Translations under genes and position numbers: made by a program
The notes under the pieces: generated by a model
Told to the model about the DNA's origin: nothing
Seen by the model: only the letters and a program-made list of their open reading frames with translations
The model's database searches: none
From: a virus
Strand: one strand, 5' to 3'
DNA length: 32,830 nucleotides
Virus record (IMG/VR): IMGVR_UViG_3300003794_000117
Span: 1-32,830 of that record
In this document: in pieces, positions 18,399-32,830 of the stretch
Position numbering within the stretch: the stretch's first letter is position 1
Layout: each line of letters opens with the position of its first letter

Positions 18399-19140
18399 AT
18401 GCCTGACTTCTTCTCCTTCCTCGCCGACCCCCAGGCCCGTCGCCGGCTGATGGCGGGAGCCCTGGACGACGACACCGACAACGACACTCTCGGCGGCCTG
18501 CTGGGCCCGGCCCGCGACGACGGCGACGTCCCCGTGGCGCTGGGCTTGCTCTCTGCACCCAGCGCACCACAGCGCCTCCCCAGGGGGCTGCTGGGCAATG
18601 ACGACGACGCAGCCCAGCCGTTCGCGATGGACGAGTTGCAAACGCAGCTCACGGGGCCCATGCTGTTCTCAGCCCCTCAGGACACGCCGCCCTTCTCGCA
18701 ATTGCTGCAGCAGATCTCGCTGCAGAACGCGGCCCGCGACGACCGGGCGGCTGACGTGGCCAACGACAGCCCTCCGACGTCCGAACAGTCGCAGGCCATG
18801 TTCCGGCAGATGGAGCGCGGCGACCGACAGCGCGCCGACACCGGTGCCACGTCCATGGACTACCGCGACGATGACCAGGGCCTGTTCGGTGCCGCGCTGC
18901 GCGCCGCCGGCGGCGACCGCCAGCGTGCGCTCGCCATCCTTGATGCCTGGACCGGCTCCGGTGGCTTTACCACTGACCGCAACGGCAGCCCCGTTGTCAG
19001 CGACGGCCAGTCGCTGCCATGGGTGGGCACCGCCCTGAGTGCCGATGCACTGGCGCAAGCCGTGCAGTGCGGCGCACTGGCGCTCAGCGAAAACAGCGCC
19101 AGGCTGGCGGCCAATGCGCAGGACGAGCGTGCGAACGAAA
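18399..19140 (+). repeat. Long repeat: type-A head and second domain, copy 1
   Basis: The first 250 codons or so of effector 1 match those of effector 3 (24025-24782) at both protein and DNA level, with the closest stretch near 18880-19020 against 24515-24655. The shorter head alone is shared with 20980-21345. Such repeats allow toxin tails to be exchanged by recombination. Confidence 0.8.
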
Positions 19141-20126
19141 TACAGCGCCTGCGCAATCGCTCAAATGCGGCGCAGGTGTCGAGCTTCTTGGAGGCGCCGT
19201 TCGGAGGGGACAAGGATGGTTCGCTGCCATCTCGGCCCGCGCCGGGCTCCGCCGAATGGTGGATTTCCCGCGGCGGAAGAGGGGTTCCCGTTGATCCAAG
19301 AATCCCCGGCATGACCGCGATCGACACGGTGGCGGAACAGGAACGTGCGGCGCGCGACGAGAAGGCGGCGGACGACCTGAAAGGTGCGCTGAGCTTGCCG
19401 TTCAATACCCTGTCGCAAACAGCTCGTGCTGCCGGCATGCCGAGTCGACAGTTCGACCGGATGTTGGAGGCCGAATACGGGCTGACGGGCGCGGTGGCGG
19501 CGCCGCTGGCGGGGTTCGAGACCGGCACGGCACGCCCGGCGTTCGAGCCCGAGGGTTGGAAACCCGTCGCTGAGTTCGCACCCGAGCTGCGCAGCTTCGC
19601 TGAGGGTGTCGAGTCCAAGGTCACGCCCGCGCTGCAAGACATTGCTCAAGCCAACGGCGGCCGGATGGTCGGGCTGGAGGCACGCCTTAAAAGCGAGGGC
19701 TCGCTGGGTCGCAAGCTCATGGACTTCCCAGAGCGTCCCATCAACGACGCCTTGCGGTATACGATGAGCTTTGAACCGGGCAGCTTCAGCCAGGGCGTGC
19801 GAGGTGCGATGCGCTCCATGGAAGATCAGGGTTACCAGTTGCGGGGCTTGAACAACAGTTTCAGGGACGGTGCCGCATACAAGGGCATCAACGCAACCTA
19901 TGCGGGCAACGACGGTCTGGAATTCGAACTTCAGTTCCACACCCCCGACAGCTTCGCGATGAAGGACGTGGTGAACCACCCGTTCTATGAGCAACAGCGC
20001 CTGCTCGATGAATCGAACCCGCAGTGGGAGCTACTGAAACAGCAGATGATCCAGAACTCAAGCCGGGTGCCCAACCCGCCCGCCGTCGAGAAGATCAAGT
20101 CCGTCAGGAGGCCGCAATCACCGTGA
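18399..20126 (+). CDS. Modular effector 1: type-A N-terminus with RelA/SpoT-like synthetase domain
   Basis: Encodes 575 residues from the ATG at 18399, behind CAGGACACC. Residues 1-120 form the type-A head shared with 20980 and 24025, with M-P-D-F-F-S-F, R-R-R-L-M, and the G-L-L-S-A-P-S...R-G-L-L-G core. Residues about 120-250 are shared only with 24025. The final 170 residues resemble a (p)ppGpp synthetase: R-L-K-S-E-G-S-L-G-R-K at 429-439, D450 in N-D-A-L-R-Y-T, Y-K-G-I-N at 494-498 and F-E-L-Q-F-H-T with E510 and Q512. These align with the substrate- and metal-binding motifs of RelA/SpoT domains. It likely makes an alarmone-type nucleotide or modifies nucleotides in the cytosol. It overlaps the next gene by GTGA. 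Relatives are known among polymorphic toxins and as the T6SS effector Tas1. Confidence 0.8.
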   Translation: MPDFFSFLADPQARRRLMAGALDDDTDNDTLGGLLGPARDDGDVPVALGLLSAPSAPQRLPRGLLGNDDDAAQPFAMDELQTQLTGPMLFSAPQDTPPFSQLLQQISLQNAARDDRAADVANDSPPTSEQSQAMFRQMERGDRQRADTGATSMDYRDDDQGLFGAALRAAGGDRQRALAILDAWTGSGGFTTDRNGSPVVSDGQSLPWVGTALSADALAQAVQCGALALSENSARLAANAQDERANEIQRLRNRSNAAQVSSFLEAPFGGDKDGSLPSRPAPGSAEWWISRGGRGVPVDPRIPGMTAIDTVAEQERAARDEKAADDLKGALSLPFNTLSQTARAAGMPSRQFDRMLEAEYGLTGAVAAPLAGFETGTARPAFEPEGWKPVAEFAPELRSFAEGVESKVTPALQDIAQANGGRMVGLEARLKSEGSLGRKLMDFPERPINDALRYTMSFEPGSFSQGVRGAMRSMEDQGYQLRGLNNSFRDGAAYKGINATYAGNDGLEFELQFHTPDSFAMKDVVNHPFYEQQRLLDESNPQWELLKQQMIQNSSRVPNPPAVEKIKSVRRPQSP

Positions 20127-20407
20127 AATGGCGCTACTTCATGCTCTACGGCAGCGGCAGACCTTACGAGATCTACCGGCTCGTTGATGACGGCAAGCCT
20201 TTCCATGCACATCGCGAACCGTTTGGCCTTTATCTGGCTCGCAAGAGCGGTGAATGGACAAACCACACGGACGACCTTCGCGGGGTGCTGAACGCCTCGC
20301 TGTCCGGCGACTTCGTTCCCGAAGAAGACGAAATCACCGAAGAGCAGGCGCTGGCCTATCTGGAGAAATGGCGCACCGTCGGTCCCTGGCCGGGAAGGCC
20401 TTGGTAG
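20123..20407 (+). CDS. Putative cytosolic immunity protein for the RelA-like toxin
   Basis: Encodes 94 residues from a GTG at 20123 that overlaps the effector stop by four bases, so translation is probably coupled. The protein is soluble, acidic at its C-terminus and has no signal peptide or membrane segment. That suits neutralising a cytosolic nucleotide synthetase. Notable segments are P-Y-E-I-Y-R-L-V-D-D-G and E-I-T-E-E-Q-A-L-A-Y-L-E-K-W. No family is recognised. Function rests on gene order. Immediately after its stop begins a displaced piece of another toxin gene. Confidence 0.7.
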   Translation: MKWRYFMLYGSGRPYEIYRLVDDGKPFHAHREPFGLYLARKSGEWTNHTDDLRGVLNASLSGDFVPEEDEITEEQALAYLEKWRTVGPWPGRPW

Positions 20408-20532
20408 GTGGCGTGGCGACCTGTGCCATCAACCCACCCAGACCTTGGATAAAAGAACCAGTCCGCCTCGACCAGGGCCCGTCAACGCCGCGGGGATGGC
20501 GTGCGTTGCCACTCAACAGCCTGCCAGACTGA
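20408..20532 (+). pseudogene. Remnant of the 3' end of an effector of the 24025 type
   Basis: The frame ending at the TGA 20530-20532 matches the last 40 or so codons of the effector at 24025. Both end W-I-K-E-P, then D-Q-x-P-S-T, then A-L-P-L-N-S-L-P plus one residue and stop. The nucleotide match is clear from about 20424 and needs no gap. There is no start, ribosome-binding site or upstream toxin domain. It directly follows the stop of the RelA-linked immunity gene, as if a new toxin tail and immunity gene had displaced the old tail. Confidence 0.8.
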
Positions 20533-20656
20533 CGGACTGACGCCACTGCAGGCATTGAGGCAGCAGATCCATGGGTAGCGAGGCCACACGTCCCTTGAAG
20601 AAGTCCTTGATTGGCGGTCCCAGCCAAACTGGCAAACCAGCCGCCGAGGAAGAAAA

Positions 20657-20914
20657 ATGAGTGCCCTGCGTTGGGCGCTCTGTATTGCCCTGGCCCTGTC
20701 GGTGCTGTTCGCGTCGACCATCCTGTGGATCGCCCTGAGCGAGAACTCGCAGGAAGAGTTTTACGGTTCCGAATTTGGCATCCAGTGGGTCTACATCTTC
20801 ACCCTGTGGTTCGCGGCATTCTTCTGGGCGTTTATCGGGCCCGCCGTGGTGCTGATCGCCGTCAAGCTCTTCCAGCTCGCGAAACGAAAGTGGGTTGAGC
20901 GACCCGGCCCCTGA
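20657..20914 (+). CDS. Orphan two-helix membrane immunity-like protein
   Basis: Encodes 85 residues with a GAGGAAG ribosome-binding site. It has two membrane helices (residues about 5-25 and 45-70) joined by a loop with N-S-Q-E-E-F-Y-G-S-E-F-G-I. Positive residues lie at both ends, so the loop should face the periplasm. It is closely similar to the proteins at 25499 and 25860, which follow a peptidoglycan-lysing effector. Here the matching effector is reduced to the remnant at 20408-20532, making this an orphan. It likely shields the host from a periplasmic muralytic toxin. Immunity is inferred from family context. Confidence 0.8.
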   Translation: MSALRWALCIALALSVLFASTILWIALSENSQEEFYGSEFGIQWVYIFTLWFAAFFWAFIGPAVVLIAVKLFQLAKRKWVERPGP

Positions 20915-20940
20915 CTGCGCACCACTGACTCTCCAATGCA

Positions 20941-20963
20941 ACCCGCCTCCAGCGGGTTTTTTC
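20941..20963 (+). terminator. Terminator and cassette boundary before effector 2
   Basis: ACCCGC and GCGGGT arms enclose a five-base loop and are followed by six T residues, then TCTTG-TCTGGACA and the start ATG at 20980. The same layout recurs at 23986, 26145, 26434 and 30469. Confidence 0.85.
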
Positions 20964-20979
20964 TTGTCTGGACATCGCG

Positions 20980-22845
20980 ATGCCTGACCTTTTCTCCTTT
21001 CTCGTCGACCCGCAAACCCGCCGCCGGTTGATCCCGGACGCCCTCGACGACGACACCGGCGCACCCGCTGGCTTGCTGGGCTCGGCCCGCGACGATACCG
21101 ACGCCTCGGTGGTCCTGGGCCTGCTATCCGCGCCGAGTGCCTCACAACGCCTCTCCAGAGGCTTGCTGGGCGGTGACGACGGCGCAAGCCTGCCCATCGG
21201 GACGGACGATCTCCAAACCCTGCTGACGGCGCCCGCGCAGATCGCCGCCCCTCAAGACGACGCGCAGTTCGCGCAACTGCTGCAGCAGATCGCCAACCAG
21301 AACGCGGCGCGCAGTGACCGGGCCGCAGCAGACGACGCTGACAACCCACCGCCGCAGTCCGTTGCCTTCACGCCGGACTACAACGCCCAGCGTGCCGGCC
21401 TCGGCGCCAGGCCTGGCAATGCCGAAGCGGACGGCACGGCGGCCCCGGCCACGCAAGGCCAAGGCCCGTTGTCAGCGGCCGACTATCGCAACGGCTCCGA
21501 TATCGACAGCGACCCCGCCGCATTGCAACGCCCGCAAGATCCACCAGTTGATGACGGCCGCGCCGATATCGAGCGCGAGAACCGTCTGTTGGCATCGCGC
21601 ACGCGAACCATCACCGGTACGTCGCCTGCGGGCATGATCACGCAGGACGGCCACAACTACTACTTGATCTCGCGGGACAAGGATGGGCTGGGTGTCTATC
21701 AGCAGCAGGACTTGGCTGCTCCCGGCGAGGTGGGCGACAAGGTTGCGCTGCCCCGCGTCACCGTCACGGGCCTGTCGCAGGCGACAGCGGCGGCGAACGA
21801 CGCCGAGATGCTGCGCCTGCAAAATCGCTCGAAGGCCGCGGACGTGGCGCGGCAAAACCCAGCCCCGGTTACCCAGGCGGATACGTCGCAAAGGCTTCGT
21901 GATCGGCAGCCCGCCGCCATGCCGACTGGCACCCCCGCCGCGCAAACCCAGCTTGCGCCCAACAAGTACGCCGGCTACGACCTCGGTACCAAGCGTGGAA
22001 TGTTGAACTTCGTTGCCGACGTGGCCAAGGCCAACAAGAAGGGCTTGCCCGTCGATGAAGACATGGCCGCGACCGCACAGCAAATTGCACGCAGCTACCT
22101 TGGAATCAACGGCAACCCTGAGCAGGTTGCCAACCAGGTACGGGGCATGTCGTCCAAGACGCTGAACAAGGCTTACGAAGATACGGTCCCCCCGATGGCG
22201 CGCTGGCAGCAGGCGAGCCAGTTTCTGGTCGATGCGTCCAACAAGGCGGGCGTGGACGCGGGCATCGTTGCGGCAATCGCGAATTACGAGTCGGGCTTCG
22301 ACCCACAGGCCAGGCCCATTGCGAAGACTCACCCGACCGAGAACAAGATTCGCCAGTTCGATGGAACGATGGCCATATCGTCGGGCTACGGCTACGGTCA
22401 GTTTCTGGATGACACCTGGCTCGGCTCCTTGCAGAAGCACGGCAAGGACTACGGCGTCGCAAATGCCCGCGCGCTGACCGGGCCGCAGGCTGACGCCCTC
22501 CGCAAGGATCTGTCACTTCAGGCCGGCATGCTGGCCGAACTGACGAAGGAAAACATTCCGTTGGGGCGCAAGCTAGGCGGCCCCGACGACGCAGCCAACG
22601 TCTATGCCTTGCACAATCTTGGCGGTGGAGAGGGCTCCAAGTTCCTGCGGGCCTTGAGGGCAACGCCCGATACACCTGTCGGCAAGGTGTTGTCGACGAA
22701 GACGGTGGCTGGGAACCCCTCTCTTTACGGCAAAGGGGATATCAGCGTCCAAGCCGCCTACGACAAAATCGCGGCAGCTATGAAATCGGGTGCAGCTTAT
22801 GCTACAGAGGCGAGACGCCTTCAAGCAGAAACCCGTCAACCATAG
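20980..22845 (+). CDS. Modular effector 2: type-A N-terminus with lytic transglycosylase-like domain
   Basis: Encodes 621 residues. Residues 1-125 are the type-A head (M-P-D-L-F-S-F, R-R-R-L-I, G-L-L-S-A-P-S, R-G-L-L-G). A polar linker follows, containing R-L-Q-N-R-S-K-A-A-D-V, which matches a linker in effector 1. The C-terminal 200 residues look like a peptidoglycan lytic transglycosylase: catalytic-type glutamate E437 in A-N-Y-E-S-G-F-D-P, then G-Y-G-Y-G-Q-F-L-D-D-T-W, then Y-A-L-H-N-L-G-G-G-E-G-S-K-F-L. It should cleave the glycan strands in the periplasm. Two secreted proteins follow at once and are candidate inhibitors. No signal peptide is present, so delivery must be by virion or lysis. 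A virion entry enzyme is an alternative role. Confidence 0.8.
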   Translation: MPDLFSFLVDPQTRRRLIPDALDDDTGAPAGLLGSARDDTDASVVLGLLSAPSASQRLSRGLLGGDDGASLPIGTDDLQTLLTAPAQIAAPQDDAQFAQLLQQIANQNAARSDRAAADDADNPPPQSVAFTPDYNAQRAGLGARPGNAEADGTAAPATQGQGPLSAADYRNGSDIDSDPAALQRPQDPPVDDGRADIERENRLLASRTRTITGTSPAGMITQDGHNYYLISRDKDGLGVYQQQDLAAPGEVGDKVALPRVTVTGLSQATAAANDAEMLRLQNRSKAADVARQNPAPVTQADTSQRLRDRQPAAMPTGTPAAQTQLAPNKYAGYDLGTKRGMLNFVADVAKANKKGLPVDEDMAATAQQIARSYLGINGNPEQVANQVRGMSSKTLNKAYEDTVPPMARWQQASQFLVDASNKAGVDAGIVAAIANYESGFDPQARPIAKTHPTENKIRQFDGTMAISSGYGYGQFLDDTWLGSLQKHGKDYGVANARALTGPQADALRKDLSLQAGMLAELTKENIPLGRKLGGPDDAANVYALHNLGGGEGSKFLRALRATPDTPVGKVLSTKTVAGNPSLYGKGDISVQAAYDKIAAAMKSGAAYATEARRLQAETRQP

Positions 22846-22852
22846 CCGCACC

Positions 22853-23269
22853 ATGCACAAATCCGTTATTCACGCGGCCGTCGCGATCACGCTTCTCGCA
22901 AGCGTGGCCGCAGACGCGCAGTCTTCTCTCCCCAAGGGCGACCGTCGAGTTGAGGGGGCTTATGAATCGCGAGCCCTGCACGCGCGGGTCATCCTCCTGG
23001 ATTACGACAAAGGGATTGCCGCTGTCAGCGTGGCCGTGACGAGCAACGGATGTACGGGGTCAGTTGTGGGGCTCGCGGAGATGACCGACAACAAGCTCGT
23101 CATCAGTCCCTATGAAAAGCTGGAAGGTGGCGAAGCCTGCCAGGTGATCCTTGTAGACGGCAGCAAATCCTGGAAGAAGGTAACGGCCACCGACAATGGA
23201 AAGTGCAATGCCTATCACGGCGCCAGTTGCACTTGGGCCGGCCAGTCGGCGAAGAAAGTCGAGAAATGA
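22853..23269 (+). CDS. Secreted immunity-like protein, first copy
   Basis: Encodes 138 residues beginning M-H-K-S. A signal peptide (residues 1-22, hydrophobic core then A-D-A before Q-S-S) sends it to the periplasm. The mature part has cysteines in N-G-C-T-G, G-G-E-A-C-Q-V and N-G-K-C-N-A-Y-H-G-A-S-C that match the neighbour at 23287, suggesting disulphides. The gene starts eight bases after the transglycosylase effector, which acts in the same compartment. A periplasmic inhibitor of that enzyme is the natural reading. It does not clearly match a known lysozyme inhibitor family such as MliC or PliI. The role is inferred. Confidence 0.75.
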   Translation: MHKSVIHAAVAITLLASVAADAQSSLPKGDRRVEGAYESRALHARVILLDYDKGIAAVSVAVTSNGCTGSVVGLAEMTDNKLVISPYEKLEGGEACQVILVDGSKSWKKVTATDNGKCNAYHGASCTWAGQSAKKVEK

Positions 23270-23286
23270 CAGGGCATTCCCGCATC

Positions 23287-23697
23287 ATGCATAAATCGAT
23301 ACTTCAGGTGACCGCGCTCATGTTTCTTGGGGCTGCCGCGGCGAGCGCCCAGGTACCGTCCCTCAAGGATCAACGCCAGATGGAGGGCGGCTACGAGGGG
23401 GACTTCATGAGCGTGCGTGTCATCTTGATGGACCCCGGAAAGGGCGTTGCGGCAGCCAGTGTGGATGTCGGGATGAACGGATGCGGCGCAGTGGTTTCAG
23501 GCCTCGGCGAGATGACGGCAAGAAAGCTGGTCATCAGCCCGTATGAAAAATTGGAAGGCGGCGATGCCTGCCGGGTGACGCTGGAGTTTGACAAATCCTG
23601 GAAGAAGGTCGCAGCCTCTGACAACGGGCAATGCACGGCCTATCACGGCGTCAGTTGCTCTTGGCAAGGCCAGTCGGCGAAAAAGGTTCGGTATTGA
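23287..23697 (+). CDS. Secreted immunity-like protein, second copy
   Basis: Encodes 136 residues from the ATG at 23287. An ATG at 23266, overlapping the preceding stop, would add seven residues before the signal peptide; the paralogue's M-H-K-S start favours 23287. The signal peptide ends A-S-A before Q-V-P. It shares Y-E-K-L-E-G-G-x-A-C, K-S-W-K-K-V and A-Y-H-G-x-S-C with the first copy, so the pair arose by tandem duplication. The copies have diverged in the N-terminal half, which may reflect recognition of different toxin variants. Confidence 0.75.
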   Translation: MHKSILQVTALMFLGAAAASAQVPSLKDQRQMEGGYEGDFMSVRVILMDPGKGVAAASVDVGMNGCGAVVSGLGEMTARKLVISPYEKLEGGDACRVTLEFDKSWKKVAASDNGQCTAYHGVSCSWQGQSAKKVRY

Positions 23698-23766
23698 TTC
23701 ATACGCGCACCAGGCAGCGGGCGGATTGGGAAAACGTGCCCCCGAAGCGGGGCAGGTGAGGCTCGT

Positions 23767-23952
23767 TTGCCAGAGCTGCTGGTGGTTGAGCGCGCCGATG
23801 CGTTGCGCATGTTGGATGCCTACGCCATCCAAAGGATGGACCCGGAAGTTCTGATCTCCTTCAAGAAAGGCGTCGCGGAGGTGGCAGGCTCATTCGACCA
23901 TTGCGGCCTTGGCAATGCCTGGTACGGAAAGTACAAGAAGAGAAAGAAGTAG
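23767..23952 (+). CDS. Short frame of unknown status in the immunity region
   Basis: Encodes 61 residues from a TTG at 23767; the frame is open from 23698, just after the preceding stop. It ends in a basic G-K-Y-K-K-R-K-K tail. No ribosome-binding site is convincing and no family is recognised. It could be a small gene, or the leftover tail of a displaced toxin or immunity gene, which would fit its place between an immunity pair and the next cassette border. Confidence 0.35.
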   Translation: MPELLVVERADALRMLDAYAIQRMDPEVLISFKKGVAEVAGSFDHCGLGNAWYGKYKKRKK

Positions 23953-23985
23953 CGCCTCCTTGCCACGACGGCTCCAACCCCAATC

Positions 23986-24008
23986 AACCCGCCGCCGGCG
24001 GGTTTTTT
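23986..24008 (+). terminator. Terminator and cassette boundary before effector 3
   Basis: AACCCGCC and GGCGGGTT form an eight-pair stem with a very short loop, followed by a T run, CTTGCCTGGACACACC and the ATG at 24025. It is the best-formed copy of the repeated boundary element. Confidence 0.85.
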
Positions 24009-24024
24009 CTTGCCTGGACACACC

Positions 24025-24782
24025 ATGCCCGACTTCTTCTCATTCTTCGCAGACCCCCAGGCCCGCCGCCGGTTGATGGCGGACGCCATCGACGAAGACG
24101 ATGACGCCGATGACGGCGGCACGCCTGGCGGCTTGCTGGGCTCTGCCAGCGACGACGCCGACACCCCCCTCGTCCTGGGCCTGCTGTCCGCGCCGAGTGC
24201 GCAACAGCGCCTCGCCAGAGGCCTGCTGGGCGATGACGACGGCGCAGGCCTGCCATTCGTGATGGACGAACCGCAAATGCAGTTCACCAAGCCCGTGCGG
24301 TTCTCTGCCCCTCAGGACACGTCGCCCTTCTCGCAACTGCTGAGGCAGATCTCGCTGCAGGACGTGACCCGCGACGACCGGGCGGCAGACACCGCCGGCG
24401 ACAGCCCTCCGACGCCCCAGCAGTCGCAGGCCATGTTCCGGCAGATGGAGCGCGACGAGCGCCAGGCCACCGACACCGGTGCGACCGCCCTGGACTACCG
24501 CGACGACGACAACGGGCTGTTCGGTGCCGCGCTGCGCGCCGCCGGCGGCGACCGCCAGCGTGCGCTCGCCGTCCTCGATGCCTGGGCCGGCTCCGGCGGC
24601 TTTGCCACCGACCGCAACGGCAGCCCCGTTGTCAGCGACGGCCAGTCGCTGCCCTGGGTAGACACCGGCGCCCTGAGTGCCGACGCATTGGCCCAAGCGG
24701 CGCAGCGCGGTGCGCAGGTGCTTGGCGACAACGGCGCCACGACGCGGTCCAACGCACGGGACGAAAGCGCGGCCGAGACCCG
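24025..24782 (+). repeat. Long repeat: type-A head and second domain, copy 2
   Basis: Partner of 18399-19140. Differences are mainly third-base changes and a few codon insertions in the acidic part near codon 30. Confidence 0.8.
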
Positions 24783-25431
24783 GCGTGAGCTCGACCGCTT
24801 CGAGGCGATGAAGGAGCCGCCAACGCATCCCTTTCCCGTCGTGCCCGGCTCCGACCTGCGGGGGCGCAGGGAGGCCGTCAAGAAGGGCTACGGGTCGCGT
24901 TTCGAGATTGCACCGAACAGTGCCGCCAACGCAGCTGCGCCGGTTGGCGAGATTGGGTTTTTCAGCACGGTGGGTCAGAACAAGGATGCGATCGAGGACG
25001 CTGCCCAGAAGTGGGGTGTCAGCCCCGACCTGATCCGCGCCGTCATGTACATGGAGGAGTCGCACGGCTACTACGACAAGCCCTTCGAACGACTGGGCTT
25101 GAACAAATCGATCCAGCCCATGAACGTGCATCGCGTCTGGGGCGACTTTGCAGGCACGCGAGAGCAACTGCTGGATCCCACCTTCAACATCGACGTCGGT
25201 GCGAAGATACTTGCCGGCATCCAGGCCAATCTCGCGCCGCAGGACCGCACCGTCGCCAACATCGCGACGCTCTACAACAAGCTGGGTGCGGACAAGGTGA
25301 CAGACTATGGGGCGCGTGTGAATGCCATCCACGAAGCCAAAGCTTGGATAAAAGAACCCCTCCGCTTCGACCAGGACCCGTCAACGCGACGGGTATGGCA
25401 GGCGTTGCCACTCAACAGCCTGCCATACTGA
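24025..25431 (+). CDS. Modular effector 3: type-A N-terminus with lysozyme/transglycosylase-like domain
   Basis: Encodes 468 residues. Residues 1-250 closely match effector 1, including R-R-R-L-M-A-D, G-L-L-S-A-P-S, R-G-L-L-G-D-D-D, the Y-R-D-D-D-N-G-L-F-G segment and D-G-Q-S-L-P-W. The last 160 residues form a different muralytic domain: W-G-V-S-P-D-L-I-R-A-V-M-Y-M-E-E-S-H-G-Y, with E344/E345 as candidate catalytic acids, then P-M-N-V-H-R-V-W, then N-I-D-V-G-A-K-I-L and A-T-L-Y-N-K-L-G-A. This is the layout of lysozyme-like transglycosylase toxins acting on peptidoglycan. Two small membrane proteins follow. The C-terminal tail matches the remnant at 20408-20532. Confidence 0.8.
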   Translation: MPDFFSFFADPQARRRLMADAIDEDDDADDGGTPGGLLGSASDDADTPLVLGLLSAPSAQQRLARGLLGDDDGAGLPFVMDEPQMQFTKPVRFSAPQDTSPFSQLLRQISLQDVTRDDRAADTAGDSPPTPQQSQAMFRQMERDERQATDTGATALDYRDDDNGLFGAALRAAGGDRQRALAVLDAWAGSGGFATDRNGSPVVSDGQSLPWVDTGALSADALAQAAQRGAQVLGDNGATTRSNARDESAAETRRELDRFEAMKEPPTHPFPVVPGSDLRGRREAVKKGYGSRFEIAPNSAANAAAPVGEIGFFSTVGQNKDAIEDAAQKWGVSPDLIRAVMYMEESHGYYDKPFERLGLNKSIQPMNVHRVWGDFAGTREQLLDPTFNIDVGAKILAGIQANLAPQDRTVANIATLYNKLGADKVTDYGARVNAIHEAKAWIKEPLRFDQDPSTRRVWQALPLNSLPY

Positions 25432-25762: not shown

Positions 25763-25814
25763 AGCCCCTGACCGCGCGCCCTTGGTCCCCGACCCCGCCC
25801 CCGACCTCGAACAC

Positions 25815-25828: not shown

Positions 25829-25859
25829 ATCCCCCGTCACGCCAGGCCATGGATCAAGA

Positions 25860-26117: not shown

Positions 26118-26144
26118 CGGCACGCTGCTGATCCCCCTCAACAC

Positions 26145-26168
26145 AACCCGCCCTCCGGCGGGTTTTTC
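26145..26168 (+). terminator. Terminator at a cassette boundary without an effector
   Basis: AACCCGCC, a short loop and GGCGGGTT, then a T run, TTGCCCGGACAACACC. The pattern is that found before effectors 2, 3 and 5, but no effector follows. Confidence 0.8.
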
Positions 26169-26405
26169 TTGCCCGGACAACACCGCGCGCGTGACCGTGG
26201 TCCCGAGGATGCTTGGAAAGAAGAATCCCCCTCGGGACTAAGCCCTTGGGGGATCCATCAGCCAACTTGGTCGGGGTGGGACCGATTTCCACCTCTCGTA
26301 CTTAGCGCCTTTCGGCCTGCCATTGACTCCGCACAACCAAGCCAGCATTTCCGGCGCCATTTCGCCGACGACTGAATTTTAGTCGCGGTACCACTTTCAT
26401 CGTCC
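26169..26405 (+). other. Non-coding gap before the lysis genes
   Basis: About 240 bases with no credible coding frame. The start contains the GGACA motif seen before effector genes. Short inverted segments (for example around 26200-26250) could fold, so a small RNA or the lysis promoter may lie here, but I recognise no known RNA family or promoter consensus. Confidence 0.35.
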
Positions 26406-26432
26406 AGCCCGCCTCGCGCGGGCTTTTGTTTT
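26406..26432 (+). terminator. First of two tandem terminators before the holin gene
   Basis: AGCCCGC and GCGGGCT arms with a short loop, followed by TTTGTTTT. A second hairpin with the same arms begins two bases later. Confidence 0.8.
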
Positions 26433-26433
26433 G

Positions 26434-26460
26434 CAGCCCGCCTTGAGCGGGCTTTTTTCG
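26434..26460 (+). terminator. Second of two tandem terminators before the holin gene
   Basis: CAGCCCGC and GCGGGCTT arms with a T-rich tail, followed by CGTCTGGACATACCC and the holin ATG. It again carries the TGGACA motif just before a start codon. The tandem arrangement should strongly insulate the lysis genes from effector transcription. Confidence 0.8.
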
Positions 26461-26473
26461 TCTGGACATACCC

Positions 26474-26776
26474 ATGAACACTCCCAATGAAGTCGACACC
26501 GCAGCCACCGCGGCCAGCTCCAGCCTCAAGGCCACCGTGGCCGGCGGCGGGCTGCTCAGCATTGGCGGCCTCACCTCGAACGACCTGGCCATCATCGGCG
26601 GCCTGCTGCTGGGCCTCGCGGGCTTCATGCTGCAGTGGTACTACCAGCGCCGCCGCGACCGGCGCGAGGAGGCCGAGCACGCGCTGCGCATGCAGGCGCT
26701 GATCGAAGAAGGCGAGGAGGAAGAGGAGGAAGAGGAGGAAGAGGAGGAAGAGGAGGGCGGCCATGACAAGCCCTGA
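26474..26776 (+). CDS. Holin-like protein with a long acidic tail
   Basis: Encodes 100 residues. Holins form membrane lesions that trigger lysis. One clear membrane helix lies at residues about 36-58 (N-D-L-A-I-I-G-G-L-L-L-G-L-A-G-F), preceded by a weaker A/G-rich segment and followed by the basic Y-Y-Q-R-R-R-D-R-R stretch. The pattern and position directly before the endolysin fit small phage holins. The tail is almost pure glutamate, encoded by a GAG/GAA repeat at 26711-26755, which is unusual. It overlaps the endolysin gene by 14 bases. Confidence 0.8.
   Translation: MNTPNEVDTAATAASSSLKATVAGGGLLSIGGLTSNDLAIIGGLLLGLAGFMLQWYYQRRRDRREEAEHALRMQALIEEGEEEEEEEEEEEEEEGGHDKP
26711..26755 (+). repeat. 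GAG/GAA simple repeat encoding the holin polyglutamate tail
   Basis: About four copies of a 9-base unit (GAGGAAGAG) in tandem. The unit length keeps the frame if copies are gained or lost. The same purine-rich stretch and the GGAGGGCGG after it lie just upstream of the endolysin ATG at 26763, so changes could alter its translation. Confidence 0.8.
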
Positions 26777-27299
26777 CCCCAGCACGCTCGCTCGACTGCG
26801 CCTGCCTGTCCGTTTGCCGATAGCCGCGCTCGCGCTCAGCGCCGCCGGCTACGTCGGCATCGTGGGCCACGAGGGCTACACCGACGGTGCCGTTCGCCCC
26901 CTGCCCACCGACGTGCCCACCTACGGGTTCGGCTCCACCACCGGGCCCGACGGCAAGCCCGTGCAGATGGGCGACCGCATCACCCCGCCCGCCGCGCTGC
27001 GCTTGAGCCTGCGCGAGATCCGCGGTGCCGAGGGCCTGCTCAAGGGCTGCCTCAGCGCGCCGCTCACGCAGGGCGAGTACGACAGCCTCGTGAGCCTGGC
27101 CTACAACGTGGGCCCCGGCGCCGTGTGCAAGTCCACCATGGTGAGCCTGCACAACGCCGGCCGCCACGAAGAAGCCTGCGCGCAGTTCGACCGCTGGACC
27201 TTCTTCCAGGGCCGCGACTGCAAGGACCCTTTGAACCGCTGCACCGGCCTGGCCAAACGCCGCGCCGCTGAGCGCGCGCAATGCGAGGGCAAGGCATGA
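26763..27299 (+). CDS. Endolysin, GH24 lysozyme with N-terminal membrane segment
   Basis: Encodes 178 residues. Hydrolyses peptidoglycan at lysis. A weakly hydrophobic Ala/Gly-rich segment (residues about 18-35) directly precedes the catalytic domain, as in SAR endolysins that are exported and held in the membrane until release. The GH24 signature is G-H-E-G-Y with E37 as the likely catalytic acid, then D50 and T53 in D-V-P-T-Y-G-F-G. L-T-Q-G-E-Y-D-S-L-V-S-L-A-Y-N-V-G and W-T-F-F-Q-G follow. Several cysteines may control activation. It overlaps holin and Rz genes on either side, a classic lysis cassette. Confidence 0.92.
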   Translation: MTSPDPSTLARLRLPVRLPIAALALSAAGYVGIVGHEGYTDGAVRPLPTDVPTYGFGSTTGPDGKPVQMGDRITPPAALRLSLREIRGAEGLLKGCLSAPLTQGEYDSLVSLAYNVGPGAVCKSTMVSLHNAGRHEEACAQFDRWTFFQGRDCKDPLNRCTGLAKRRAAERAQCEGKA

Positions 27300-27802
27300 A
27301 TGCGCTGCTGCGCGTCGTTACGGCCTTGTCGCCCGCCGCCTGCCTGGCCCTCGTGCTCGCGACGCTGCTGGGCGTGCAGACCCTGCGCCTGGCCCACACC
27401 CGCACTGCGCTGGCCCAGGAGCGCGCTACCCGCGCCATTGAAGCCGCACAAGCCACCACTGCCGCCCGCGCCGAAGAGCAACGCCGCACCATCGCCCAAC
27501 AGGAGATCGCCCATGCCGCCCAACAAGCCCAGGCCCATGCGGCTGCTGACCGCCGTGCTGCCGACGCTGCTGCTGGCAGCCTGCGCCAGCGCTTCGCGGC
27601 CCTTGCCGCCACTTGCCGTGCCGCCCCCGGCGATCCCGCCGCTGCCGCTGCAGGCCCGCCAGCCCCCACCCCCGCCGATCTGCTCGCCGACGTGCAGCGC
27701 CGGCTTGACGACGCTGCGGGCCAGCTTGCTGCTGCCGCCGACGACGCCCGCATTGCCGGGCTGGCCTGCGAGCGCAGCTATGACGCGTTGACGGCGAAGT
27801 AA
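27296..27802 (+). CDS. Rz: Spanin inner-membrane subunit (Rz-like)
   Basis: Encodes 168 residues. The spanin disrupts the outer membrane in the last step of lysis. An N-terminal membrane anchor (residues about 10-32) is followed by a long Ala/Gln/Arg coiled coil reaching into the periplasm and a C-terminal D-A-R-I-A-G-L-A-C-E-R-S-Y segment. It starts in an ATGA overlap with the endolysin and contains the Rz1 gene in another frame. Family assignment rests on topology, position and the nested lipoprotein. Confidence 0.85.
   Translation: MNALLRVVTALSPAACLALVLATLLGVQTLRLAHTRTALAQERATRAIEAAQATTAARAEEQRRTIAQQEIAHAAQQAQAHAAADRRAADAAAGSLRQRFAALAATCRAAPGDPAAAAAGPPAPTPADLLADVQRRLDDAAGQLAAAADDARIAGLACERSYDALTAK
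27513..27791 (+). CDS. Rz1: Spanin outer-membrane lipoprotein (Rz1-like), nested in Rz
   Basis: Encodes 92 residues in a different frame inside the Rz gene, from an ATG at 27513 with CAGGAG just upstream. A lipoprotein signal ends L-L-L-A-A-C (lipobox), and the mature part is very proline-rich (P-L-P-P-L-A-V-P-P-P-A-I-P-P), as in Rz1 proteins. An ATG at 27537 is a possible alternative start. The nested layout is the hallmark of Rz/Rz1 pairs. Confidence 0.85.
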   Translation: MPPNKPRPMRLLTAVLPTLLLAACASASRPLPPLAVPPPAIPPLPLQARQPPPPPICSPTCSAGLTTLRASLLLPPTTPALPGWPASAAMTR

Positions 27803-27861
27803 GCCGGACGCGACCCTCGTGCGTTGTGTCAACACTTGAAAGACCGATATGAAATTTCTCT

Positions 27862-29055
27862 ATGGCCTGTTGGGCCCCTTCAACCGACGACCTCGATGAC
27901 GAAGAGGATGGGGCGCCGCGGGGGCTGCTGTCGGCGCCCAGCGTGCTGCCAGGTCAACTCATGGGGCTGCTAGGCTATGACGATGTTTTGCTGCAGGCGC
28001 GGCAACGGTCGGCGATAGACGAGGGTCAGCCGCTGCACCTCGGCCCTGACCTGTTGGCGGCCCCATCGACAGCAAGTGACCACAGTTTGCTCAACGCCGC
28101 TGAGCGCCTCGCCAACCCGCAGGCCTACACGAGCGTCGAAGGTCGCAGGGTTGTGGTGCAAGATGGCGACACGCTTTCGGGATTGGCCGGTACCAGCGAC
28201 CCCGCGATGGTGGGCGCTGTCATGGCGGCCAACAACCTTGATGGCAGCGCGATACGCCCAGGGGACGTCCTCTTCCTTCCAAACAACGCAAGTGCCTATG
28301 GCGACAACGCCGTATCCGGCGACCGGTTGTTGGCGCGAGACAACGCAAGCCGGGCCATGAAGGCCGCATGGCAGGAGTCAGCGGAGCGGGCGCAAAGGCT
28401 GGGCCTGAGTGGTGGCGTGGACAGAGCGCCGGTTGATCCAGAGCTTGAGCGGTTTGCGGCAGAGTACCGCGCTCGCATCGACAGAGGCCCGCAGGCGTCG
28501 GCGTACGACCTTGCCGCGGAACAAGCGCGACAGCAGGCGAAACAAAAGGCAGGGACCACCATCGGCCTTGCGGCGGGTGGCCTCCTCACAGGCTGGGCCG
28601 CCGGCGCACAACTCGCGGGTGCTCCGGACAACGCGATCAATGACATCGGTGTGGCCAATGCAGGCCTCGTCACGTCCTTGGACCCGCTGGTGCGCTACTA
28701 CGAGACAGTCAAGCCCAAGCCGGTTGACCCGAGATTCGACACTTCCGTAGACGGGTTCATCAACCCTGGCAAGCAATCGCGGCACGTGACAGGGACCAAA
28801 GACTATGAAAGCCGGCGCGGAAGCTATTTCGAGCAGGTCAGCGACGCACAGGATGTGCTGGAGGCCTACCAGAACGGGCAGGCCGTCGTGGTGGCAAGGG
28901 GAAATGACGGCGGGCCCATTGTTCGCGTTGACGGGGCCAAGGGGTTCAACCACAACCCACGTGCCGGCTATCCTGACCAGCCGACCAATCTGTTCTGGAT
29001 CAAGGGCAGCTCCAGTGTGAGCGTCGTACCCGTTTCACCCACGAAAGGGCAATAG
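27862..29055 (+). CDS. Modular effector 4: type-B N-terminus (frameshifted), LysM and Ntox50-like RNase domain
   Basis: Encodes 397 residues in the frame from 27862. The natural start appears to be the ATG at 27849, whose frame begins M-K-F-L-Y-G-L-L-G-P like effector 5. That frame stops after 16 codons, and the homology continues in this frame after a one-base shift near 27878-27881. Downstream lie G-L-L-S-A-P-S and G-L-L-G-Y-D-D. A LysM-like peptidoglycan-binding repeat follows at about 96-140 (Q-D-G-D-T-L-S, then N-N-L-D-G, then I-R-P-G-D). From about 300 come K304-Q-S-R-H308-V-T-G-T, later N-G-Q-A-V-V and a V-S-V-V-P-V-S-P end, the pattern of Ntox50 (PF15542, BECR-fold RNase) toxins. It is followed two bases later by a candidate immunity gene. 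Confidence 0.75.
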   Translation: MACWAPSTDDLDDEEDGAPRGLLSAPSVLPGQLMGLLGYDDVLLQARQRSAIDEGQPLHLGPDLLAAPSTASDHSLLNAAERLANPQAYTSVEGRRVVVQDGDTLSGLAGTSDPAMVGAVMAANNLDGSAIRPGDVLFLPNNASAYGDNAVSGDRLLARDNASRAMKAAWQESAERAQRLGLSGGVDRAPVDPELERFAAEYRARIDRGPQASAYDLAAEQARQQAKQKAGTTIGLAAGGLLTGWAAGAQLAGAPDNAINDIGVANAGLVTSLDPLVRYYETVKPKPVDPRFDTSVDGFINPGKQSRHVTGTKDYESRRGSYFEQVSDAQDVLEAYQNGQAVVVARGNDGGPIVRVDGAKGFNHNPRAGYPDQPTNLFWIKGSSSVSVVPVSPTKGQ

Positions 29056-29056
29056 C

Positions 29057-29380
29057 GTGATTGATGTGAACGAGAGAAACGGGGTGTTCGTCAACTTGGC
29101 CCATGCCTGTCTTGGGCGGTTGAGCCCAAACGTTCGACGGGTGGATTTCGCGATGGATGCCTATCAGGCGTTCCGCGTCAGAGTCGTGCTTCGCGAGGAA
29201 TCGCAGAATGACAGAGAAGAACTGAGAGAGGCCATGGAGGACTTCGAGGCATCGACGCGCCAGCCACCCTACGATCTTCCATTTGATGTGGCCTTGGAGA
29301 TTCGAATCGACACAGACCCGCTCAGGTGGAGGACAGAGGATGACGGCTTCCTGGGCCTGTACTGGGAGAAGCAGGACTGA
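29057..29380 (+). CDS. Putative cytosolic immunity protein for the Ntox50-like toxin
   Basis: Encodes 107 residues from a GTG one base after the effector stop. It has no signal peptide or membrane segment and is acidic, as expected for an inhibitor of a basic RNase domain. Segments include Y-Q-A-F-R-V-R-V-V-L-R-E-E and L-G-L-Y-W-E-K-Q-D at the end. No named immunity family is recognised. Assignment rests on the tight spacing and the charge match. Confidence 0.7.
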   Translation: MIDVNERNGVFVNLAHACLGRLSPNVRRVDFAMDAYQAFRVRVVLREESQNDREELREAMEDFEASTRQPPYDLPFDVALEIRIDTDPLRWRTEDDGFLGLYWEKQD

Positions 29381-29411
29381 TCCGGCGCGTGGAGCCCGGT
29401 CTTTGCCATGA

Positions 29412-29564
29412 GCCGGTTGGTGGCCGGTCAATGCGAGCAATCTGCTTGTCTTCAAGGATGGGAGTTGGACCATGAGCCCTGGGGCCGTTGGTTCCCCGCG
29501 GGTGCAGGGAGCGCCAATCCGGGTACTCCCTTTCCCATCGGCTGCAAGCGCACCAAGGAGGTGA
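29412..29564 (+). pseudogene. Possible displaced toxin tail before an immunity gene
   Basis: An open frame of 50 codons without a start, beginning after a TGA at 29409 and ending in a TGA at 29562-29564, one base before the next gene's ATG. The translation contains N-L-L-V-F-K-D-G-S-W-T-M and reads like a protein end. Toxin genes here end just this close to their immunity genes, so it may be the relict of a replaced toxin. No homologue in the window supports it directly. Confidence 0.35.
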
Positions 29565-29565
29565 A

Positions 29566-29982
29566 ATGTCAGTCAATCTATGCGTGGAAATAGACCCGAG
29601 GCTTGGGTTTGAGGAAATGAGAGGTCTGTTCGAGGCCGCTGGATTTGTCGACATCGAACCTTATTACGACGTAAGCGTGGAAGCGACATGCCCGGGGTCT
29701 GGGATGGGCGTCTCCGCGGATCGCTACGACGGCTCAGAGGACTTGTTCGTGGAAGATGTCGATTCGCCGGATCGGTGGAAACTCGGAAGCCAGGTGACGT
29801 TCTTTTATCGGTTTGGTATGCCGGATGTCTGCAAAAAAGAAGTCGCCGACTTCTTGAAGGTGCTGTCTTCTGCAAGCCCTGCCTATTTTGTGTTTTCCTT
29901 CCAGCATGAGAATGTCTACGCGATACGTGACAGCGGAGGATTGCGATTTCTGGATGGGTCCGGCTACGAACAGTACCGCTAG
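29566..29982 (+). CDS. Soluble immunity-like protein, probably orphan
   Basis: Encodes 138 residues with a strong AAGGAGG ribosome-binding site. It is acidic and soluble, without a signal peptide. Its central part alternates strands (S-Q-V-T-F-F-Y-R-F-G-M, later Y-F-V-F-S-F-Q) as in many small alpha/beta immunity proteins. No toxin gene lies directly before it, only the possible tail at 29412-29564. It sits in a row of three immunity-like genes after effector 4, as is common in toxin arrays. No family name can be given. Confidence 0.7.
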   Translation: MSVNLCVEIDPRLGFEEMRGLFEAAGFVDIEPYYDVSVEATCPGSGMGVSADRYDGSEDLFVEDVDSPDRWKLGSQVTFFYRFGMPDVCKKEVADFLKVLSSASPAYFVFSFQHENVYAIRDSGGLRFLDGSGYEQYR

Positions 29983-29993
29983 GGTTTAGTTGC

Positions 29994-30451
29994 ATGGGGT
30001 TGTTGACCCGAAAGTGGCCGGGAGACCATGACGTGACGAATTCACCGGGCGAATGGCCCGCCTTGGAGACCTACATCGCCGGGCCGGAAATCCTGGGCTT
30101 CGCCTTCGACTACCCAGCGCATTTCCTGGATTGCATCTCCTGGGGAGATCGGGACATCGATGCCGGAGGCGACGGGCACGCGTTGACCTTCCTGGACCGA
30201 GAGTCCGTCAGGACAGACCTGCAGTCCTTCGTCCGCAAGGCGACTTCTTCAAGCGCCTGGTGCCCTTCGCTCGGGGAGACAACGGCGACGCCTTGTTCTG
30301 CTTCGGCGGCCCTCGCGACCCAGCCATCTACGTGATCAACCTGGGCGACAGGCGCTTGCGGGCGCGATCCACAGGCTTCAGCGATTTCGTTGCCTTCATC
30401 AACGACTATCGACGCAATATGGACCTGCCGCCCTGGGATCCAGAGCGTTGA
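29994..30451 (+). pseudogene. Frameshifted SUKH/SMI1-like immunity gene
   Basis: Two adjoining frames make one protein of about 152 residues. The first (from ATG 29994) reads to about 30239 and contains A-G-P-E-I-L-G-F-A-F-D-Y. The second continues from about 30242 with D-F-F-K-R-L-V-P-F-A-R-G-D-N-G-D and later S-T-G-F-S-D-F-V-A-F-I-N, ending at the TGA 30449-30451. The second part has the P-F-A-x-G-D-N-G-D and S-F-x-x-F signature of SMI1/KNR4 (SUKH) immunity proteins. One base appears lost near 30239-30241. It is a pseudogene unless the base is a sequencing error. Confidence 0.7.
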
Positions 30452-30468
30452 GCAACCCCTCACTCACC

Positions 30469-30495
30469 AACCCGCCTCGGCGGGTTTCTTCTTTT
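30469..30495 (+). terminator. Terminator and cassette boundary before effector 5
   Basis: AACCCGCC, a loop of TC and GGCGGGTT arms, then a T-rich tail, CAGGACACCTCACC and the ATG at 30510. Same boundary layout as before effectors 2 and 3, but in front of a type-B head. Confidence 0.85.
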
Positions 30496-30509
30496 CAGGA
30501 CACCTCACC

Positions 30510-31574
30510 ATGAAATTCCTCGCCGGCCTGCTGGGCCCCGCCATCGATGACGATGAAGACGACGACCAGGGCAACGCGCCGCAAGGCCTGCTGTCGTCGC
30601 CGGTCGTGCAGCACGCCCTCGCCACCGGGTTGCTGGGTTATGACGGTGCCGCCGCGCAGCAGGCATCCGCCACCGGCTCCGGGCCCGACGATCCCCTTGA
30701 CGCGGACGCCGTCTTCCCCGTGCCGTTCAACCCACTCGTCACGCTGCAAGGCATCCTGGGGCCGAACCACTTCATCGACAGCAATGCGGACATGCAGGAG
30801 CGGCGGCGCGACGTGCTGGCGGCACCTGCGGGCGGCGCGGCGGATGCCCCGACGCTGTCGCTGGGTGATGACGAGCTGGCGCGTGAAAACTACGTGCTGC
30901 GCAACAAGGCGCCGCCGCCAAGTCCTTTCGACCTGGAGCGCCAGTACAAGCGGGACAACGTCTCGCCGGCGGTGCCGCAGTTCGTTGACCACGGACGGCC
31001 GCAGGACGTCAGCACGCCATCCCTTGAGGTGCTGAACAGGATTGCGCGGGACGCTGGCCTCGACATTGGGCAACTGCAAGTCACCAGTGGCCCCAGAACG
31101 GCGGCTGAGCAGGCTGGAATCATGTACGGGCCGTTGGCGGCGAACAGGCCGCAGGATCTGGCTGACTACGGCAAACCTGGCCAAGAGCTGATAGGCATAT
31201 TCAACCGGGGCAGGGCTGCGGGAGACTCTCCCCGCACGATCCAGGAAAAGATGGCCCAACGAGCGCAAGAACTGCTGGACCGGGACATCAGGGTTTCAAA
31301 CCATATGGGAGACCCCAGGGAGCTGAATGTCTTTGACATCGGCCTGTCTTCAGTGCCCGCAGAAAAGCGGGAAGCCTTCCAGGCAGCATTGAACGCAGCC
31401 AAGGCCCGGGGTGATCTGCGCGAGGTCCTGTCACCCTACACGCCGACGAAAGATCCCCGCGCCTTTCATCTGGAGATTCACCAGCCCACCCTGCGTGCGA
31501 ACATGAACACCGCGCTCCAGAACCAACTGTTCCGGCAGTGGGAACTCCAACGAATGAACGCCAACGAAAGGTAG
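30510..31574 (+). CDS. Modular effector 5: type-B N-terminus with M15-like peptidase domain
   Basis: Encodes 354 residues from the ATG at 30510. The head reads M-K-F-L-A-G-L-L-G-P, an Asp/Glu run, then G-L-L-S-S-P and G-L-L-G-Y-D. After a polar linker, residues about 175-335 form a zinc peptidase-like domain: S-G-P-R-T-A-A-E-Q-A-G near 197, S-N-H with H265, F-D-I-G with D276, and H320-L-E322-I-H324. These correspond to the SxH, Asp and HxExH elements of M15 D,D-carboxypeptidase and L,D-endopeptidases, which cut peptidoglycan stems. The target is periplasmic, and two secreted proteins follow. No signal peptide is present. The H-to-D spacing is longer than in classical M15 enzymes, so the exact subfamily is unclear. 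Confidence 0.8.
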   Translation: MKFLAGLLGPAIDDDEDDDQGNAPQGLLSSPVVQHALATGLLGYDGAAAQQASATGSGPDDPLDADAVFPVPFNPLVTLQGILGPNHFIDSNADMQERRRDVLAAPAGGAADAPTLSLGDDELARENYVLRNKAPPPSPFDLERQYKRDNVSPAVPQFVDHGRPQDVSTPSLEVLNRIARDAGLDIGQLQVTSGPRTAAEQAGIMYGPLAANRPQDLADYGKPGQELIGIFNRGRAAGDSPRTIQEKMAQRAQELLDRDIRVSNHMGDPRELNVFDIGLSSVPAEKREAFQAALNAAKARGDLREVLSPYTPTKDPRAFHLEIHQPTLRANMNTALQNQLFRQWELQRMNANER

Positions 31575-31580
31575 ATCCGC

Positions 31581-32180
31581 ATGCGTCGTCTGAAGCTGTG
31601 CTGCTTGCTTGGGTTGCTGCTGCAAGCCCCCTTCGCCAGCGCCGACCTGGCTTGGCTGGAAGACCACGAGCCCAAGCCGCTGGCGACGGCTGCCTCAGCC
31701 CACAGGACGGAGGTGGGCTTTGTCAAGACAGCCTTTGGCGACAAGCGGTCCGAGCGGATCCTGAGCACCGCCGAACGCCTGTGGCCGGAGTTCAAAGTGG
31801 CCGCGGCCTGCCTGGGGTCCTTCAACGTGCCGGGCCATCAGGAGGCGGCTCTGGCGCTTGTGAAGGCCGATGCCAGCCAGGTGGTCTACGCGGTGTTCCT
31901 GAACGATACGCAGCCTGTGGTGCTGCTGGATCAGAAGGTGGACAGCAGCGCGCCCGCCGCGGCGCAGCGCATGGTGGGCATCCGCTGCAGGTCATGGACG
32001 TCCATCGAACGCAAGAACGCAGCGCTTCGGCAGCCGGGGCAGTCGGCGGGCGTGACGCGCAACACGTTGATGGATTCGGCCTGCGTGATGCCGCTGGACG
32101 CCGACCAGCCCGTCGCCTGCTACGGCTATGACCGCAAGCGCCAGGAATTCGCCAAGCTGGGCAGTTGGCCCAAAGAGTAG
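31581..32180 (+). CDS. Secreted immunity-like protein, first copy
   Basis: Encodes 199 residues. The signal peptide (M-R-R-L-K-L, Leu-rich core, A-S-A before D-L) sends it to the periplasm. The mature part shares four cysteine positions with the neighbour at 32228: A-C-L-G-S-F, R-C-R-S-W-T-S-I-E, S-A-C-V and A-C-Y-G-Y. It starts six bases after the peptidase effector and probably restrains it in the periplasm. No known family is recognised. Confidence 0.75.
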   Translation: MRRLKLCCLLGLLLQAPFASADLAWLEDHEPKPLATAASAHRTEVGFVKTAFGDKRSERILSTAERLWPEFKVAAACLGSFNVPGHQEAALALVKADASQVVYAVFLNDTQPVVLLDQKVDSSAPAAAQRMVGIRCRSWTSIERKNAALRQPGQSAGVTRNTLMDSACVMPLDADQPVACYGYDRKRQEFAKLGSWPKE

Positions 32181-32227
32181 TGCCGGGTGGACCACCGGCC
32201 GTTCAACACAGGGAGGAGACGATTCAC

Positions 32228-32830
32228 ATGCGCCAACTGAAGAAATGCCTCTTGCTGGGGCTGCTGCTGCTCATCCAGGTCGCACGGGCCGATGACGAGT
32301 TCCCCACGTTGACGGAGCGCGAGGCGGCCCCGACGTTCGCGCTGATGCACGAGAAAGGCGTGGCCTTTCTCAAGAAGGCCGTGGGCCCGCAGCGGGCCGG
32401 CCGCATCCTGCTCTCCATCAAGGAGATGGGGTTCGACTACAAGGTCGTCGCCGGCTGCGTGGGCTCGTTCGATAAGCCCGGCGCAACCCAGGTGGCGCTG
32501 GGCCTGGCCAGAGACGACTCCCCCTCGTACCTGTACGTCGCCTTCCGCGACGACGCCAAGCCCGAAACGCTGGTTGAGCAGACGCTTCACTACGGTGACC
32601 GCGCCAACCTGGCGACCCGCCTCGGGGTGGACTGCATGTCATGGACGAGCATTGAACGCGGCAACTTCAACCCGCAACGTCTCAAGGGCGACCCCGTGCC
32701 CGTAGAGCGGCGTTCGTACCTGGATGGGGCTTGCGTGGACCAACTGGTCTCTGACCGAGGCAAGATGTGCTACCTCTTTGACAAGAAGAAGGGCGAGTTT
32801 GTCGCTGGTGGTGGGTGGGCGTGGGACTAG
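32228..32830 (+). CDS. Secreted immunity-like protein, second copy
   Basis: Encodes 200 residues from the ATG at 32228, with GGAGGAG upstream. The signal peptide ends A-R-A before D-D-E. It aligns along its full length with 31581, sharing G-C-V-G-S-F, C-M-S-W-T-S-I-E-R, G-A-C-V and a late C-Y-L-F-D-K-K. The pair is a tandem duplication. The gene ends exactly at the window edge with TAG, so more of the array may lie beyond. Confidence 0.75.
   Translation: MRQLKKCLLLGLLLLIQVARADDEFPTLTEREAAPTFALMHEKGVAFLKKAVGPQRAGRILLSIKEMGFDYKVVAGCVGSFDKPGATQVALGLARDDSPSYLYVAFRDDAKPETLVEQTLHYGDRANLATRLGVDCMSWTSIERGNFNPQRLKGDPVPVERRSYLDGACVDQLVSDRGKMCYLFDKKKGEFVAGGGWAWD

Follow-up and report, generated by a model that had tools for sequence, protein, structure and literature searches.

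Phages are known to carry polymorphic toxins with a MuF domain, Apk2 included (PMC5576092, PMC12226406). In the literature examined, phage-borne polymorphic toxins use MuF or secretion-system heads, and the phages examined had one such toxin gene. The Apk2-type MuF domain makes (p)ppApp and is bactericidal to E. coli in published assays (PMC12226406). Here, we report a series of five effector genes, E1 to E5, each consisting of a head and a variable tail, which spans positions 18399-31574 among the late genes of a podovirus known from a metagenome (IMG/VR record IMGVR_UViG_3300003794_000117). The window analysed is this whole record of 32,830 bases, a fragment of a phage genome, and the parts of the array and the two genes before it lie on its plus strand. 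Like the MuF toxins, the array is phage-borne and located among late genes, with a putative virion-linked N-terminal domain, variable toxic tails and downstream immunity genes. The best explanation of the whole, to which we assign a probability of roughly 0.6, is a late-region polymorphic toxin array with a packaged, ejection-protein-like tag and with immunity genes that would protect lysogens. That the genes encode polymorphic toxins with cognate immunity is, judged from the sequence, very likely, and for their loading into the virion through the head we see about even odds.

The initial annotation of this DNA had proposed five effector open reading frames (ORFs) with related heads, and all five are present at or beside the places where it had put them. 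The relatedness of the heads is strong among E1, E2 and E3, with 72% identity over 263 residues between E1 and E3 (E 1e-113), 64% over 126 residues between E1 and E2, and 58% over 129 residues between E2 and E3. These three are clear paralogues with a common N-terminal part of 124-263 residues, and their C-terminal tails are unrelated despite the 58-72% identical heads. For E4 and E5 the claimed relationship holds weakly, through a core of about 25-57 residues with GLL repeats only (E 2e-4 to 0.09). The GLL repeats are found at positions 33/49/63, 31/47/61 and 36/52/66 in E1, E2 and E3, respectively, and the spacing of the last two head repeats is 14 in all five effectors. The head region is not matched by any family in Pfam, NCBIfam or PHROG. 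Membership of the MuF family was rejected because its defining domain, PF04233, was not matched in E1-E5. The head had been described as different from MuF and as unrecognised, and both descriptions stand, with a tentative tie to the N-terminus of an ejection protein now added. Chance ORFs were also considered and rejected.

E1 (18399-20126, 575 residues) shares its head, residues 1-263, with E3 and carries an Apk2-type RelA-like alarmone synthetase at about residues 390-567. Its tail had been called RelA-like, and it matches the RSH-type synthetase domain of PDB 8vx3 (E 1e-10), XopAD (E 5e-31) and, weakly, Tas1. It is about 30-33% identical to the toxic tails of MuF/Apk2 proteins from Streptococcus, Pasteurella, Mannheimia and Aggregatibacter phages (E down to 1e-22), and the Syn-like motifs of RSH synthetases are aligned and conserved in it. 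The GTG start of the candidate immunity gene (20123-20407) overlaps the stop codon of E1 and its 94-residue, IapK-like product is without a signal peptide. A single-pair comparison with IapK (E 0.004) looked weak before a profile was built from 25 IapK-like immunity proteins of Apk-bearing phages. With this profile the protein scored 14.9 bits, above 5000 of 5000 shuffles, and was the top non-member among 13,141 ORFs. An AlphaFold2 model of it (predicted local distance difference test, pLDDT, 69.5) had no match in PDB or BFVD. An Aph1/HD hydrolase gene was looked for 3' of E1 without a match, the next genes being the IapK-like gene and a gene for a protein with two transmembrane (TM) helices only. 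In viral contigs, some Apk-like domains were also seen at the end of very large phage proteins of 1500-2200 residues (L136, L146, L185, L147 and others), followed by IapK-like genes, and these may be non-MuF carriers.

The history of the E1 locus can be followed by aligning it to the E3 locus, which gives three blocks. The first (18380-19126) is 82% identical over 759 base pairs (bp). The second (20424-20532, 109 bp) matches 25323-25431 at 85% identity and is what remains, as an orphan, of a toxin tail of the E3 type. The third (20653-20974, 78%) comprises an immunity gene and a terminator. This gene (20657-20914) is an orphan two-TM immunity gene, whose product shares 68% identity with the immunity protein of E3. 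Blocks 1 and 2 are separated by 1.3 kb that encode the Apk2 domain and the IapK-like protein, an inserted toxin-immunity cassette (19127-20423) between two E3-homologous blocks. The three-block alignment with its 1.3-kb insert is therefore read as the mark left when one toxin-immunity cassette displaced an earlier one, and the E1 locus is, as judged from the DNA, a cassette replacement in which the orphan tail and the orphan immunity gene are still visible.

The two tails that had been described as muralytic are likewise supported. E2 (20980-22845, 621 residues, head 1-126) has a C-terminal SLT_4/phiKZ gp144-like lytic transglycosylase, which matches a PHROG transglycosylase (1e-17), gp144 structures (1e-7) and, below the Pfam cutoff, SLT_4 (8.5e-5). 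Its two candidate immunity genes encode a protein with a signal peptide (22853-23269) and a 58% identical copy with a signal-peptide-like N-terminus by inspection (23287-23697); an apparent homologue of E2 immunity was rejected, being antisense to an unrelated gene. E3 (24025-25431, 468 residues) joins the common head to a C-terminal SLT/MltC-like transglycosylase (0.004-0.006, below cutoff), and it is followed by two candidate immunity genes for two-TM proteins (25499-25762 and 25860-26117). A homologue of the E3 toxin (34% identity, E 1e-13) stands alone on a megaplasmid in Photobacterium, and directly 3' of it an 84-residue two-TM protein is encoded which, compared with the TM immunity profile of the window, beats 2992 of 2992 hydropathy-preserving shuffles. 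On Photobacterium sp. GJ3 plasmid pGJ3-1 (L220:4920-6191) the stand-alone SLT toxin is followed by two two-TM genes and lies beside a transposase-like gene. The evidence for a pair is strongest at E1 and E3, since toxin and neighbour both have homologous partners elsewhere, those of E1 in MuF-toxin/IapK phages and those of E3 in the Photobacterium cassette with its two-TM gene. The same tails are thus found on other carriers, the E1 tail on MuF heads and in XopAD and the E3 tail by itself.

E4 (27862-29055, 397 residues) consists of a short GLL head, the first ~10 residues of which are out of frame, and is by its domain matches a LysM plus Ntox50 RNase. The Ntox50-like tail reported earlier reaches 30.7 bits against a cutoff of 22.2, LysM is likewise above cutoff, and Ntox50 is a known polymorphic-toxin domain (PMC3482391). 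The apparent start of the protein, MKFLYGLLGP, lies at 27849, in another frame than the ORF at 27862 (27849-27895). The frame of the head changes at a CCCC run, owing to an indel of the assembly or to a true frameshift. Two of its three candidate immunity genes encode cytosolic proteins (29057-29380 and 29566-29982), and the third (29994-30451) is split over two frames, with a downstream piece that is SUKH-1-like below threshold. After the E4 start, this split is the second break in the record that looks like an indel.

E5 (30510-31574, 354 residues) pairs a short GLL head with a probable M15-type metallopeptidase at its C-terminus. For the earlier M15-like assignment speak the motif V-S-N-H ... 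N-V-F-D-I ... F-H-L-E-I, which holds a His/Asp ... His-x-Glu metal-site signature, and one 32% identical phage protein that has the motif in part. No Pfam profile or PDB match was obtained, and the model of E5 (pLDDT 45.5) was too poor for structure searching. The two candidate immunity genes of E5 both encode signal peptides (31581-32180 and 32228-32830), the second copy being 37% identical to the first and reaching the contig end, and searches of the sampled genomes and plasmids with the E5 immunity protein gave no match.

As had been proposed, one to three small immunity-like genes follow each effector, namely one (and one orphan) for E1, two for E2, two for E3, three for E4 and two for E5. 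Signal peptides or TM helices are present in seven of the seven candidate immunity proteins beside E2, E3 and E5, with the orphan counted here, and in none of the four beside E1 and E4 (Fisher p ~0.003, with visual inspection contributing to the signal calls for 23287 and 32228). The candidate immunity proteins are accordingly predicted to sit in the compartment that the toxin would attack. The match in location extends to all five modules; homologous pairs back the cognate assignment for E1 and E3, and position and duplication only for E2, E4 and E5. The polymorphic-toxin architecture that the initial annotation had suggested is borne out, and the homologous pairs, the cassette replacement and the agreement between immunity location and target are added to it here.

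Module boundaries are marked by intrinsic-terminator-like hairpins, each with a leader similar to the others, directly 5' of E2 (20940-20979), before E3 (23986-24024) and before E5 (30469-30509). A fourth copy (26145-26180) has no effector after it and may mark an empty or decayed module. Two more tandem terminator-like hairpins (26406 and 26435) stand before the holin gene in the same interval, 26145-26473. Of the promoter and the terminator that flank the gene in a classical moron, a sigma-70-type promoter was not found, and terminator hairpins were seen at the four module boundaries.

The placement among late structural and lysis genes was rightly recognised from the outset, as the window covers late genes of a podovirus whose portal and capsid are of the SU10 type. 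The terminase is 53% identical to that of Hollowayvirus phages such as H66 and up to 72% identical to those of environmental viral contigs; a terminase scan of genomes gave distant loci only and no host. The order runs from terminase to portal, scaffold, capsid, tail and other virion genes, then 14953-17388 and 17407-18378, and then the array. The last two are virion/ejection-type genes directly 5' of E1 (14953-18378), of which the ejection-type 17407-18378 ends the gene series 5' of the array. Relatives of an 811-residue virion protein were searched for and none was found. A lysis cassette of holin, lysozyme-type endolysin and Rz-like spanin lies inside the array (26474-27802), and the C-terminal end of the holin (26702-26776) is a glutamate run from a GAG/GAA microsatellite. 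A 213-residue protein encoded 5' of the terminase (465-1106) has zinc-ribbon-like CxxC pairs at its N-terminus and no Pfam or PHROG match. A type VI secretion system (T6SS) or contact-dependent inhibition (CDI) island was rejected, as no such genes are present and the array is flanked by phage structural genes on the left and the contig end on the right.

In related phages two ejection-protein genes occupy the place of E1, after the counterpart of 17407-18378, and the product of the first has a GLL-rich N-terminus. In pairwise comparisons with 12 ejection-protein N-termini, evaluated by shuffles, the heads of E1, E2, E3 and E5 gave p values of 0.0004-0.006, and their scores exceeded those of 33 of 33 control proteins. 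When residues 61-120 of the ejection proteins were used as a control, the signal was gone for E2-E5. These comparisons are suggestive of a link between the head and the N-terminal end of the relatives' internal ejection protein. The relatives also harbour, 3' of the lysis genes, a single gene whose head is conserved (83% over 108 residues or 92% over 73 residues) and whose tails are unrelated. Immunity genes are absent there, which argues that this slot serves modular effectors generally. These genes are L090:9831-10601, L100:8532-9641, L091:18937-20454 and L098:10191-11558, one with an ART-PolyVal-like and one with a DUF7178-like tail.

In the best explanation, a conserved N-terminal tag is joined to exchangeable domains that kill bacteria. 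The head, derived from or mimicking the N-terminal GLL motif of the ejection protein, would load the effectors into the capsid, and upon infection they would be ejected along with the DNA, the wall enzymes to act in the periplasm and E1 and E4 in the cytoplasm. The immunity genes could shield related lysogens against particles that superinfect or are released, while non-immune competitors would be inhibited by the phage or its lysogens. The repeated terminator and leader boundaries may both separate the modules transcriptionally and provide homology for the swapping of whole modules.

Several observations weigh against packaging by such a head and against parts of this scheme. The E1 head retained a residual p of 0.02 with the control residues 61-120, and the head of E4, its start out of frame, reached only p 0.07 with the ejection N-termini. 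Profile searches of head against ejection protein gave E-values that were not significant, and the corresponding profile shuffles (p 0.007-0.044) indicate weak homology. Nor are the head tests independent, since E1-E3 are paralogues and E4 and E5 share part of the head. No head homologues bearing other tails were found outside this record, so that swapping of head and tail is shown only among its own paralogues. The initial annotation had proposed a profile search with the head to list its C-terminal partners; a head-profile search, run on viral contigs, genome contigs and 369 Gammaproteobacteria, found no relative and hence provides no such list outside the record. A search with the E3 protein and tblastn of the head against phages gave none either, and a DNA-pattern search for GLLSAPSA gave four matches, all by chance; the absence of relatives is limited by exact-peptide seeding and by the possible exclusion of near records. 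As to lysogeny, neither integrase nor repressor was seen in the 32.8-kb record, with the early genes outside it. The phage is probably temperate, as related phages carry an integrase, found 3' of their lysis genes.

The ejection proteins of relatives also give rise to a different explanation, in which E2, E3 and E5 are muralytic virion proteins ejected for DNA entry, E1 and E4 serve host takeover in the polyvalent manner, and the small genes are unrelated morons. E2 and E3 could be such entry enzymes because the ejection protein at the corresponding place in a related phage (L108:3904-5949) bears an N-terminal SLT domain (PF01464, 1.6e-15). Moreover, where the usual ejection pair would follow 17407-18378, the window has E1-E3 instead. 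Entry enzymes would have no need of periplasmic or membrane immunity, yet six such genes lie beside the wall enzymes, in addition to the orphan 20657-20914. Furthermore, Photobacterium has the E3 pair as a toxin-immunity cassette standing by itself, the E1 tail belongs to a family proven toxic (PMC12226406) and has a matching IapK-like gene, and the cassette replacement left orphan parts of the kind typical of polymorphic toxins. We consider this explanation unlikely.

Equally improbable, in our estimate, is that the effectors are not packaged at all and are freed by prophage-induced lysis to reach neighbouring cells in the fashion of colicins. The holin-endolysin-Rz cassette within the array, the LysM wall-binding domain of E4 and the failure to see a signal peptide on any effector would all fit such release. 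However, Pfam, PHROG and other family searches revealed no domain for receptor binding or translocation in any of the effectors, and the head resembles the N-termini of ejection proteins, not colicin domains. A role in superinfection exclusion or phage defence, in which the toxins would act like toxin-antitoxin systems and protect the lysogen from other phages, is very unlikely, for although ToxSAS enzymes can serve phage defence (CapRel, cited in PMC12691689), the genes lie in a late operon with structural genes, and enzymes that degrade the wall and are paired with periplasmic inhibitors would be ill suited to abortive infection.

If a packaged toxin array is the correct interpretation, phages can also derive a means of loading toxins from an internal virion protein other than MuF, and their virions may attack the cell wall of competitors in addition to the cytoplasm. 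A single podovirus virion might then deliver a cocktail of up to five wall-degrading and cytoplasmic toxins, and the GLL-repeat head might be a new portable tag for capsid loading and ejection, a tentative proposal that we hold at somewhat less than even odds. Such a short N-terminal tag could be used to program the delivery of proteins, and it would allow a direct test of whether phage toxins really travel in the particle.

Each of the known systems shares part of its organization with the array. Phage polyvalent proteins (PMC5512222) are likewise late-gene, predicted virion-packaged and modular effector enzymes, and the related phage L100, with its sub-threshold ART-PolyVal match, is a single-gene example of that type; unlike these, the array has one toxin domain per gene and dedicated immunity genes. 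The internal ejection proteins of temperate, Hollowayvirus-like podoviruses have the same genome position and a weak likeness in the N-terminal GLL motif, whereas the array effectors have a toxin domain in place of the coiled-coil body. With CDI/Rhs-type toxins and their orphan cassettes the array has in common a displaced orphan tail and immunity gene after a replaced module, but it has neither two-partner-secretion genes nor Rhs repeats and is located in a phage. With Apk2 of the MuF toxins, E1 shares the Apk2 domain and an accompanying IapK-like gene. The MuF gene adjoins the portal gene, and the Apk2 phages examined have one such gene and one set of immunity genes. In the array, by contrast, without a MuF domain and without an Aph1 hydrolase gene, five effectors are arranged serially after the ejection genes and around the lysis genes, and three of them have wall-targeting tails accompanied by periplasmic or membrane immunity.

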